DNA of 64,000 nt from the NCBI GenBank assembly GCA_020073015.1, contig JAIQFZ010000004.1:79928-143927 (forward strand). Reading direction: 5' to 3'. Every line of letters starts with the position of its first letter. Within the stretch, counting starts at the first letter, position 1. The position numbers were made by a program, and so were the translations under genes. The notes under the pieces are model-generated. The model made no database searches. It worked only from the letters and a program-made list of their open reading frames with translations, and was not told the DNA's origin. Origin of the DNA: Terriglobia bacterium. GTDB taxonomy: Bacteria; Acidobacteriota; Terriglobia; Terriglobales; Acidobacteriaceae. Below, in pieces: positions 37,819 to 45,400 of the stretch.

Positions 37819-37862
37819 GCGGAGCTTCGCTCCGCTCGCGGACAGGAGTGTCCGCGCCACAC
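37819..37862. repeat. two-part hairpin repeat (GCGGAGC module)
   Basis: GCGGAGCTTCGCTCCGC (37819-37835) is followed by arms CGCGGACA/TGTCCGCG around a GGAG loop (37837-37856) and then CGCCACAC-type bases. The same two-part layout is inside carB at 43269-43312, and the second part is inside the dapA-like gene at 41012-41036. Confidence 0.7.
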
Positions 37863-38683
37863 TACTTCGCTGTGAACGTGGCTGGGCGCTTCTCGACGTA
37901 CGCCGCCAGCCCTTCTTTTGCGTCTTCGCTTTGAAACAGGAGTTGCTGATTCTCGCGCTCCACGGCCAACGCGGATTCGAGCGGGATCTCCCAGCCGGTT
38001 TGCACTGCGCGCTTGATGCGGCCCACAGCCTTGGCGGCCTTGTTGGGCGGGCAGAACTGGCGCGCGTACTCCATGATGTTTTCCATGAAGCCGTCGCGCT
38101 CGAAGATGTCGTTGATGATGTTCAGCTCTTTGGCTTCTTCGAAGGAAAACGTGTTGCCGGTGATCATCAGTTCAATGGCCTTGCTCTTCCCCACCAGGCG
38201 CGAGAGGCGCTGCGTTCCGCCGGTCCCGGGGAGCACGCCGAGGTTGACTTCCGGCAGCCCGATCTTGCCCGCGTCTTTGCGGGCGATGCGGAGGTCGGCA
38301 GCCATGGCGATTTCGAGTCCGCCGCCGACGCAGTGCCCGTTGAGCGCTGCAATGACGAGCTTGGGGGTTTGCTCGAAGCGCAGCAGCGTCTCGTTGGCGT
38401 GCAGGCAGAAGTAGTACTTGAAGGTCGGGTCCACGCTCGCCAGCATCTTGATGTTGGCGCCGGCCGAGAAAAACTTGTCGCCCGCGCCGGTCAGGACCAT
38501 CACATGGACGTCGTTATCCATGCGTGCTTTCAGGATGGCGTCGTCGAGCTGGCGATTCATCTCGTAGGTGTAGGTGTTGGCGGGCGGATCGTTCATTTCG
38601 ATCACGGCAACGCCCGCATCGGTGCGGTAATTGATGAGCTGCTTGGTTGTGTCGCCAGTGGCGGGCTGCAGAGTGGTGGCCAT
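37862..38683 (-). CDS. enoyl-CoA hydratase/isomerase family protein
   Basis: 273 aa crotonase-fold enzyme with both catalytic Glu residues of hydratases: one in V-G-G-G-L-E-I-A-M-A and one in G-L-P-E-V-N-L-G-V-L-P-G-T-G-G. The first oxyanion segment is F-S-A-G-A-N-I-K. Strong GAAGGAGCAACC ribosome site. It lies between the di-iron oxygenase and the TetR gene, all on one strand, as a short catabolic operon. Confidence 0.88.
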   Translation of the reverse strand: MATTLQPATGDTTKQLINYRTDAGVAVIEMNDPPANTYTYEMNRQLDDAILKARMDNDVHVMVLTGAGDKFFSAGANIKMLASVDPTFKYYFCLHANETLLRFEQTPKLVIAALNGHCVGGGLEIAMAADLRIARKDAGKIGLPEVNLGVLPGTGGTQRLSRLVGKSKAIELMITGNTFSFEEAKELNIINDIFERDGFMENIMEYARQFCPPNKAAKAVGRIKRAVQTGWEIPLESALAVERENQQLLFQSEDAKEGLAAYVEKRPATFTAK

Positions 38684-38704
38684 GGTTGCTCCTTCTAGTT
38701 TTCT

Positions 38705-42370: not shown

Positions 42371-42427
42371 CCCTTCGACTCCGCGGCATCTTCTCGGTTC
42401 GCGAGAAGATGCTGCTCCGCTCAGGGT
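42371..42427. repeat. 25-mer repeat variant carrying an 11-bp-stem hairpin
   Basis: CCCTTCGACTCCGC and GCTCCGCTCAGGG, the two halves of the dispersed 25-mer, flank a perfect stem (GCATCTTCTCG/CGAGAAGATGC, loop of five). It lies between carB and the membrane protein gene, with no T-tract. Confidence 0.65.
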
Positions 42428-42491
42428 AACTCCTTAATAAACAGATCACGGGCACCCTCAATAGCCGGGGTTCTCCGGCCTGTATTAAAAC

Positions 42492-45400
42492 CTACTTCGG
42501 GGTGCCCACGCGCTCCGCATGCAACGCCTGCAGCGCTTGCACCCGGACCTCTCCTCGTTGCAGGGCGGCGATGCCGTCGGCGGCGGCCCTTGCGGCGGAG
42601 AGCGTTGTGATCGTGGGGATGCGGGCGGTTACGGCGGCGCGGCGGATGGCTTTCTCATCGAAGTACGGATCGGGGCCGTGGGGCGTGTTCACGATGAGCT
42701 GGATGCGCTCGGCCTTGATCATGTCGACCGCGTTGGGGCGTCCTTCTTTCACTTTGTAGACTCGCTCGACGCCGAGGCCGGAGGCTTCGATGATGTCGGC
42801 GGTGCCGTGGGTGGCTACGAGTTTGAAGCCCATGTCGACGAAGCGGTGGGCTACGTCGACGACCTGCGGCTTGTCGTGGTCGGTGACGCTGAGGAAGACG
42901 GTGCCTTGGGTGGGCAGCTTTTGTCCGGCGGCGATTTGGGCTTTGGCAAAGGCTTCACCGAAGTTGTCAGCCACGCCCATGACCTCGCCGGTGGAGCGCA
43001 TTTCGGGGCCGAGGACCGTGTCGACGCCCGGGAATTTTTGCCATGGGAACACGGGCGACTTCACGTAGAAGCAGCGGCCGGTGTCTAAGTCGGCGCCGCG
43101 CTCGATGTACTCGGGGAGGAACTCGCGCAGCTTGCGGCCCGTCATGAGGCGCGCGGCGATTTTGGCGAGGGGGACGCCGGTGGCCTTTGAGACGTAGGGA
43201 ACGGTACGCGAGGCTCGGGGGTTGACTTCGAGAACGTAGACTTTGCCGTTTCCGTCAGCCGTTTGGCTGCGGAGCTCCGCTCCGCTTGGACGGGCGAGGG
43301 CGCCCGTCCCCACAACGCCCGTCCCTCCATTTGTTGTGCTGGCTCCGCGGGGGATGGCGAACTGGATGTTCATCAGGCCAACTACTTTTAGGGCGCGCGC
43401 CAGTTTGAAGGTGTAGTCGCGCATGCAGTTGAGTTGCGACTCGGGAATATCGACTGCCGGGAGCACGCAGGAGGAGTCGCCGGAGTGGATGCCGGCTTCC
43501 TCGATGTGCTGCATGATTCCGCCGATCACGACGTCTTCTCCGTCGGAGAGCGCGTCGACGTCGACTTCGATTGCGTCTTCGAGGAATTTGTCGATCAGGA
43601 TCGGGCGGTCCTGCGAGTATTCGACCGCCTGCTTCATGTATTCGACGATGGTGTCTTCGTCGAAGGCGATGACCATGGCGCGTCCGCCGAGAACGTAGGA
43701 GGGGCGGACGAGGACCGGGAAGCCGATTTTCTTGGCCGCCTCGACGGCACCTTCGGCCGACGTCACCATGGCGCCAGGAGCCTGCGGAATGTCGAGTTCC
43801 TCGAGCAGCTTGCCGAAGCGCTTGCGGTCTTCCGCCAGGTCGATGCATTCGGGCGAGGTGCCGATGATGTTCACGCCTGCGGCCTTGAGCGGGAGGGACA
43901 GGTTGAGCGGAGTCTGTCCGCCGAATTGCACGATCACGCCGACGGGCGCTCCGGCCGAGGCTTCGTGCTCGCAGATGGCGAAGACGTCTTCGAGCGTGAG
44001 CGGCTCGAAGTAGAGGCGGTCGCTGGTGTCGTAGTCGGTCGAGACCGTCTCGGGATTGCAGTTGATCATGATGGTCTCGTAGCCGTCTTCGCGCAGGGCG
44101 TACGAAGCATGGCAGCAGCAGTAATCGAATTCAATTCCCTGCCCGATGCGGTTGGGGCCTGAGCCGAGAATGATGACTTTTTTCTTGGGCGTGGGCGCGG
44201 CTTCGTCTTCTTCCTCGTAGGTCGAGTAGAGATAGGGCGTGTAGCTTTCGAATTCGGCGGCGCAGGTGTCGACGCGCTTGTAGACCGGCTTCAGGCCGTG
44301 CTTCTTTCGGAAGTGCCGGACCTTTTCCTGACCGCCCTTGCCGTCGAGCCGCCACGTTCCGGCGAGGCGCCCGTCGGAGAAGCCCATGCGCTTGGCTTCG
44401 CGCAGGATCTCTGTGGGAATCGATTCCATCGGATGCTTTTCCAGCTCGAGTTGCATGTCGTTTATTTCTTTGAGCTGGTAGAGGAACCACGGGTCGATCG
44501 CGGTCATCTTCGCAATCTGCTTGATCGGGAAACCCTGGCGTATGGCGTACTGGACGTAGGTCAGGCGCTCGGGATGCGGCGTGACCAGGCGCTGCGTGAG
44601 AATCTTCGGCTCGATTTTCTGCGATCCGACTCGCTTGCCGGTGTCTAGGGCGCGAATTCCCTTTTGCAGCGCTTCCTTGAACGTGCGGCCGATAGCCATG
44701 ACTTCGCCGACCGACTTCATCTGCGGGCCCAGGCTTTCGTCGGCGCCGGGAAACTTCTCGAATTGCCACTTGGGAATTTTGACAACCACATAGTCGAGCG
44801 TGGGCTCGAAGCACGCGGGCGTTTTGCGGGTGATGTCGTTGGGAATTTCGTCGAGCGTGTAACCGATGGCGAGCTTGGCGGCGATCTTGGCAATCGGGAA
44901 GCCGGTGGCTTTCGACGCCAGCGCCGACGACCGAGAGACGCGCGGGTTCATCTCGATGACCACCATGCGCCCGGTCGATGGATTCACACCGAACTGAATG
45001 TTCGATCCGCCGGTTTCGACGCCGATCTCGCGAATGACGGCGATGGAGGCGTCGCGCATCATTTGGTACTCGCGGTCCGTGAGCGTTTGCGCCGGGGCCA
45101 CCGTGATCGAGTCGCCGGTGTGTACGCCCATGGGGTCGAAGTTCTCGATCGAGCAGATGATGATGACGTTGTCTTTGGTGTCGCGCATCACCTCGAGTTC
45201 GTACTCTTTCCAGCCGAGGACGGATTCTTCGATCAGGCATTCGTGCACGGGCGAGAGGTCCAGGCCACGGGCCAGTACTTCCATCAGCTCTTCGCGGTTG
45301 TAGGCGATGCCGCCGCCGGTGCCGCCGAGCGTGAACGACGGCCGGATGATGACGGGGAAGCCGATCTTGCCGGCGAATTCGAGGCCGTCTTTGAGGTTGT

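Follow-up and report, generated by a model that had tools for sequence, protein, structure and literature searches.

Two families of GTGG/GTAG-tagged REP hairpins in an acidobacterial genome, with copies in frame in carB and a dapA-like gene

Results

Hairpin repeats in the window

The window, a 64,000-nt stretch of contig C45 from a Terriglobia bacterium (genome G000), carries tagged hairpins between and within genes. The first, on the minus strand at 37837–37863 (C45:117764–117790), occupies a gap flanked by ORFs at 36625–37800 and 37862–38683 and matches the family A REP consensus exactly; directly 3′ of it is a second palindrome, AGCGGAGC-TTC-GCTCCGCT, at 37818–37836. Another family A unit lies at 41011–41037 (minus strand; covariance-model match at C45:120938–120965), in frame in a dapA-like gene of the DHDPS family (40601–41710, minus strand; Pfam PF00701), where it spans residues 225–234 and has one stem mismatch. 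The dapA-like protein scores under the NCBIfam dapA cut-off, and its nearest solved chain is a 4-hydroxy-2-oxoglutarate aldolase. The gene carB, encoding the large subunit of carbamoyl-phosphate synthase (42492–45866, minus strand; NCBIfam), holds a family B unit in frame at 43288–43315 (minus strand; residues 851–860; pattern match at C45:123216–123240), with a second hairpin at 43269–43285, the element as a whole lying in a loop. A degenerate extra family A copy adjoins the 3′ end of ORF 47636–48211 at 47610–47637 on the minus strand.

A sequence-only reading of this DNA had described palindromes at the intergenic, dapA-like and carB sites, with arms that pair in every copy and loops GGAG, AGGG and AGGA. 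The palindromes are present at all three, far above chance, and the loops are as described. Stem arms are fully paired in the intergenic and carB copies; the statement on pairing was slightly overstated, because one stem position of the dapA-like copy is G·T (A·C on the opposite strand). The short motif GTCCGCGCCACAC, counted in the window only, occurs seven times at two mismatches against 3.62 expected, which is not significant, so the case rests on the whole genome.

Other repeats share the window. A palindrome repeat, CCCTTCGACT[CG]CGCTCAGGG, occurs at 38751–38782, at 40560–40591 and at about 42370–42429, the third copy enclosing another hairpin; the motif is also found in the purL loop of a relative (G002, L327), and its strict pattern occurs three times in the sampled G000 DNA. 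A third GTGG-hairpin family, CGCAGCGC-TTCA-GCGCTGCG, is contained in a longer repeated element at 31150–31194, 34666–34752 and 36396–36483, with seven strict matches in the sampled DNA, one of them beside the Y1_Tnp locus L003. At gathering thresholds, Rfam returned only a tRNA and an Acido-Lenti-1 RNA in the window, the latter (RF01687) at 21028–21073 on the minus strand with 49.8 bits.

Genome-wide copy number and REP hallmarks

The intergenic and dapA-like copies share the family A pattern AGTGTGG-CGCGGACA-CTCC-TGTCCGCG, and the carB copy has the family B pattern GTGG-GGACGGGCG-CCCT-CGCCCGTCC, followed by its second hairpin. These are two related REP families with a common plan, a GTGG or GTAG tag and then a short-loop hairpin. 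What had been read as one hairpin repeat in three contexts does occur in three contexts, but the separate patterns rule out a single repeat. Pattern searches of the whole genome gave 14 matches for family A and 13 for family B, with none for either reversed-pattern control, and a broader GTGK-hairpin pattern gave 75 (control, 4). We built a covariance model on 16 family A copies of G000, the source genome; it gave at least 155 matches genome-wide at E ≤ 1 (150 of 7,514 candidates scored). This search, which the sequence-only reading had proposed, thus added well over a hundred further copies, so the repeat is not limited to the three sites. At five or fewer mismatches, 202 copies (179 of family A, 23 of family B; reversed consensus, 0) were counted in 164 stretches amounting to 1,157,190 nt of G000 with overlaps unmerged; this is not a density figure, because most stretches were chosen for holding repeats, and the 40 stretches picked by contig number contain 13 of the 202. 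Of the 23 family B copies, 13 have a second hairpin that begins no more than 8 nt from the unit; in family A, 5 of 179 copies do. The intergenic window copy is one of these five, joining a family A hairpin to the kind of second hairpin common in family B.

In the excerpted text of PMC6006769, REPs are defined by a GTAG or GTGG tag 0–2 nt 5′ of a fully paired stem of 7–20 nt with a loop of 2–5 nt. Family A has this organisation: 177 of its 179 copies carry one tag or the other (GTGG 109, GTAG 68), and the 8-bp stem is perfect in 147. It also shows the high copy number of REPs (at least 155 model matches) and their mostly extragenic placement, with 131 of the 202 copies intergenic, 22 at gene edges, 18 near gene ends and 31 inside genes, in 28 ORFs. 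We sampled tags in 632 kb, comprising the 40 stretches by contig number, a few of them shifted off DNA already taken, and the window. Before 110 perfect hairpins with stem ≥8, the most frequent tetranucleotides were GTAG (8 against 0.52 expected) and GTGG (8 against 1.05, two of the eight being the finding itself). TTAG was enriched as well (6 against 0.16), and therefore tags besides GT[AG]G exist.

The stems vary in a correlated manner. Over the 179 family A copies, positions 13 and 22 form A-T in 125, G-C in 49 and another combination in 5, while positions 8 and 27 form C-G in 146, G-C in 25 and another in 8; this co-variation bears out the claim that the structure is kept through compensating changes. 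Among 96 distinct copies, 730 of 768 stem cells pair, against a maximum of 675 in 1,000 shuffles, a statistic that is descriptive because the copies are related. Where two copies lie less than 200 nt apart (38 neighbour pairs), 29 pairs are inverted, all in the same sense, and the remaining nine are direct. The inner gap is 22–28 nt in 18 of the 29 inverted pairs, which is the layout of a REPIN, two inverted REPs with a short spacer, as given in the excerpted text of PMC3116915; 126 of the 202 copies are singletons.

Candidate mobilisers

The genome has eight matches to the RAYT-type domain Y1_Tnp (Pfam PF01797), seven of them above the cut-off. Two, L005 and L007, are flanked on each side by matching GTAG hairpins, an arrangement that a RAYT locus would be expected to show; these hairpins are other than those of families A and B. 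L002, above the Pfam cut-off, has one A/B-like hairpin in its flank, near the expectation from chance spacing. L008 (G000:C211, 395–976) is a Y1_Tnp-like ORF under the cut-off; a REP lies within its 3′ end, and several A/B-like hairpins surround it. Against solved structures it gave weak matches only, to IS200/IS605-type transposases (E 0.08). The proposed check for a TnpA-REP-type transposase therefore returned Y1_Tnp genes, but none of the eight is an intact RAYT tied to family A or B, so the mobiliser of both families is one that we infer. A simple motif script found no family A or B stems at 30 loci drawn from the 78 Y1_Tnp matches in 12 relatives (G001–G012); four of the 30 hold tagged hairpins, five in total.

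Two further observations concern these genes. The hairpins at L005 (G000:C53, 1413–2071) form an inverted GTAG-hairpin pair, and the metH loop of G002 contains a hairpin identical to them in stem and loop. Among the relatives, G005 (the genome of L100) stands out with 42 Y1_Tnp matches, many of which are fragments; the others searched have far fewer.

Placement of repeats in coding DNA

Genes were called with a home-made codon-based caller. They are strongly avoided, because 31 of 202 copies are genic though coding DNA makes up about 84% of the sample; that 31 copies are called inside genes supports the suggestion that the repeats are tolerated in coding DNA. The intragenic copies are read through in frame. 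We searched 27 of the 28 REP-bearing ORFs against NCBIfam, leaving out the near-duplicate L196, and 17 scored above the curated cut-off: CarB, TrmFO, a MoeA domain, DusB, PrmC, LarC, TrmD, MutL, MnmE, PurL, AnmK, ClpB, MetH, a KpsF-type isomerase, Ddl, RecN and MutS2. Nine, including the dapA-like protein, have weaker matches only, and L183, a 95-aa ORF that is doubtful, has no NCBIfam match. In DusB and LarC the insert comes ahead of the NCBIfam match and may fall in a linker or upstream of the actual start; the two MutS2 copies have five mismatches each. The PmbA-like genes L202 and L196, on contigs C103 and C204, are nearly identical and carry a REP at matching residues, reflecting either duplication or strain variation within the draft.

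The six reading frames are used 12, 9, 5, 2, 2 and 1 times (chi-square p 0.0018; p 0.004 when the near-duplicate is left out). The family A consensus is free of stops in each of its six frames, so stops are not the cause of this bias, which may reflect selection on the encoded peptide. We also considered whether REPs are designed to be stop-free and found no evidence of it, as 37% of shuffles are stop-free too.

The same loops in related genomes

The best carB relatives among the matches listed are Acidobacteriaceae, Acidobacteria or Terriglobales at 84–89% identity; together with the Acido-Lenti-1 RNA of the window, they point to a probable acidobacterial host. In a five-protein tree, G000 pairs with G001 (support 100) and G002–G006 form a group (100) with inner supports of 53–83, G003 and G004 being sisters at 83. 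At E ≤ 0.01 the family A model gave 0, 1, 19, 5, 13, 1, 0, 0, 1, 0, 0 and 0 matches in G001–G012; these counts concern family A only, because the model was built on G000 copies. Six of the 12 relatives have no match and the other six have 1–19, and therefore the family A burst is lineage-specific.

The loops that carry the window's genic copies differ in length between genomes. That of carB has 42 residues in G000, 41 in G001, 33 in G003, 16–21 in G002 and G004–G007, and 9–14 in G008–G011; in the sister genome G001 a decayed family B copy could be read in it by eye. The dapA-like loop has 36 residues in G000, 45 without a hairpin in G001, and 22–24 in G002, G003, G005, G006 and G007. In a structure model of the dapA-like protein (mean pLDDT 86, 11 sequences), residues 210–243 fall under 50, and the REP insert at residues 225–234 lies within this stretch. 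Residues ~185–255 are an older, clade-specific extra stretch that is absent from distant homologues and has the REP inside it. The entire stretch was considered as a repeat and rejected, as most of it is common to relatives and only about 12 residues accompany the REP.

We compared seven of the 28 ORFs with 51 orthologues from the relatives. The genes, carB and the dapA-like gene of the window together with mnmE, purL, clpB, metH and trmFO, were chosen because G000 has a REP there, and metH and trmFO joined after mnmE, purL and clpB had shown the pattern. Orthologues have 11 perfect hairpins in 6,558 nt of aligned loops, where 1.73 are expected (binomial p 4.6e-7), and 19 in the other 107,163 nt, although two of the 11 (mnmE of G001, purL of G007) are not REP-like, the two in metH of G002 are not independent of each other, nor are the two in metH of G003, and lower constraint on loops than on cores could by itself raise loop counts. 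An adjacent GT[AG]G tag accompanies four loop hairpins and three elsewhere (p 3.4e-4). Clear REP cases are mnmE of G004, in the same orientation as in G000, mnmE of G002, in the opposite one, clpB of G003, and metH of G002 and G003; several of the relatives' loop hairpins belong to other REP families. The 40 matches of the family A model in relatives include two of these loops, mnmE of G004 and clpB of G003. Decayed forms were read by eye in mnmE of G003 and G009, purL of G003, metH of G005 and trmFO of G002. No intact hairpin was found in relatives' loops for carB, the dapA-like gene or trmFO, three of the seven genes compared.

Discussion

The hairpins are probably REP copies of two GTGG/GTAG-tagged families for which a RAYT-type Y1 transposase is the likely mobiliser; the in-frame carB and dapA-like copies are predicted to be translated as short surface loops. 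A single-strand transposase would recognise the 5′ tag and hairpin and move REPs, singly or as inverted pairs, to new sites. Protein-disrupting insertions would be lost, and in-frame peptides in tolerant loops would persist; the hairpin would later decay while the added residues stay. Given such persistence, we propose that the same loops are hit repeatedly by the active REP family of each lineage. Tentatively, and with the balance still somewhat against it, REP mobility may act as a standing loop-insertion mutagen in this acidobacterial clade, a few surface loops being recolonised in each species by different REP families and left with new protein sequence when the hairpin decays.

The sequence-only reading had called the repeats mobile or gene-converted. 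Mobility is favoured by lineage-specific copy number and by loops that, in several relatives, are shorter at these positions. The intragenic hairpins could instead be old shared insertions whose stems were homogenised in each genome by gene conversion, without fresh insertion. The clpB REP, which has the same place and orientation in G000 and G003 with differing stems, would fit such a history, as would the apparent decayed family B copy in carB of the sister genome G001. The clpB site, however, is hairpin-free in G002, G004, G005, G006 and G007 (the G001 loop was not recovered), and with G003 and G004 as sisters an old shared insertion would need several losses. The mnmE REPs are moreover oppositely oriented in G002 and G004, and metH has different REP families in G000, G002 and G003, so that we regard shared ancestry with homogenisation as unlikely.

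Were the genic hairpins kept for a function at the RNA or DNA level, such as transcript stability, pausing or the binding of gyrase or another protein, the peptide would be incidental. Family A stems are indeed perfect in 25 of 27 genic copies and in 93 of 119 intergenic copies, a difference that recent insertion would also fit. Genes are avoided overall, the hairpin is missing at many of the same sites in relatives, and the unequal use of reading frames suggests that the peptide is under selection, all of which makes a nucleic-acid role very unlikely. That the genic copies are errors of a metagenome-type draft is most improbable: the genome is split over 245 contigs, and C103 and C204 share near-identical genes with the same insertion, but the frames stay open through the inserts and are unevenly used, and REPs occupy the same loops in other genomes (clpB of G003, mnmE of G004).

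If REP insertion is the correct reading, many core enzymes of a single genome are predicted to have gained peptides from repeats named 'extragenic'. Relatives offer both empty and occupied sites, and it is therefore testable whether such insertion supplies new protein sequence or is neutral wear on loops that tolerate it; the target rule of RAYTs likewise becomes testable.

In tag, short hairpin, copy number, inverted pairs and mostly intergenic position, families A and B resemble the GTAG/GTGG REPs and REPINs that accompany RAYT (TnpA-REP) genes. They differ in host group, in a RAYT that we infer, and in the second hairpin present in 13 of 23 family B copies. Koribacter versatilis is an acidobacterium. 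Tyrosine transposase genes are mentioned for it in the excerpted text of Di Nocera 2013 (PMC3733652), and the RepRanger table, in the portion available, includes acidobacterial genomes (PMC12306157). Rickettsia palindromic elements (RPEs), which Di Nocera 2013 recalls alongside in-frame REPs (PMC3733652, excerpt), are likewise palindromes in frame in housekeeping proteins, as are the repeats in the 17 of 27 ORFs above the NCBIfam cut-off; the tag described for RPE-4 and RPE-6 in that excerpt, CGTC, sets them apart from the GTGG/GTAG repeats here. The same excerpt lists in-frame intragenic REPs in several species, REP units in known proteins as in our case, and includes a single same-site case, Xanthomonas recB, in which different REPs occur at about one site (PMC3733652). 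With RPEs and these REPs published, the kind is already known. Literature searches, with most subscription papers outside their coverage, found no report of in-frame REPs in acidobacteria. Compared with the cases in the excerpt of Di Nocera 2013 (PMC3733652), there are here 31 copies in 28 ORFs in the sampled part of one genome, and several loops are hit in several related species. What is new is the acidobacterial case itself, its spread over core enzymes and the repeated colonisation of the same protein loops.
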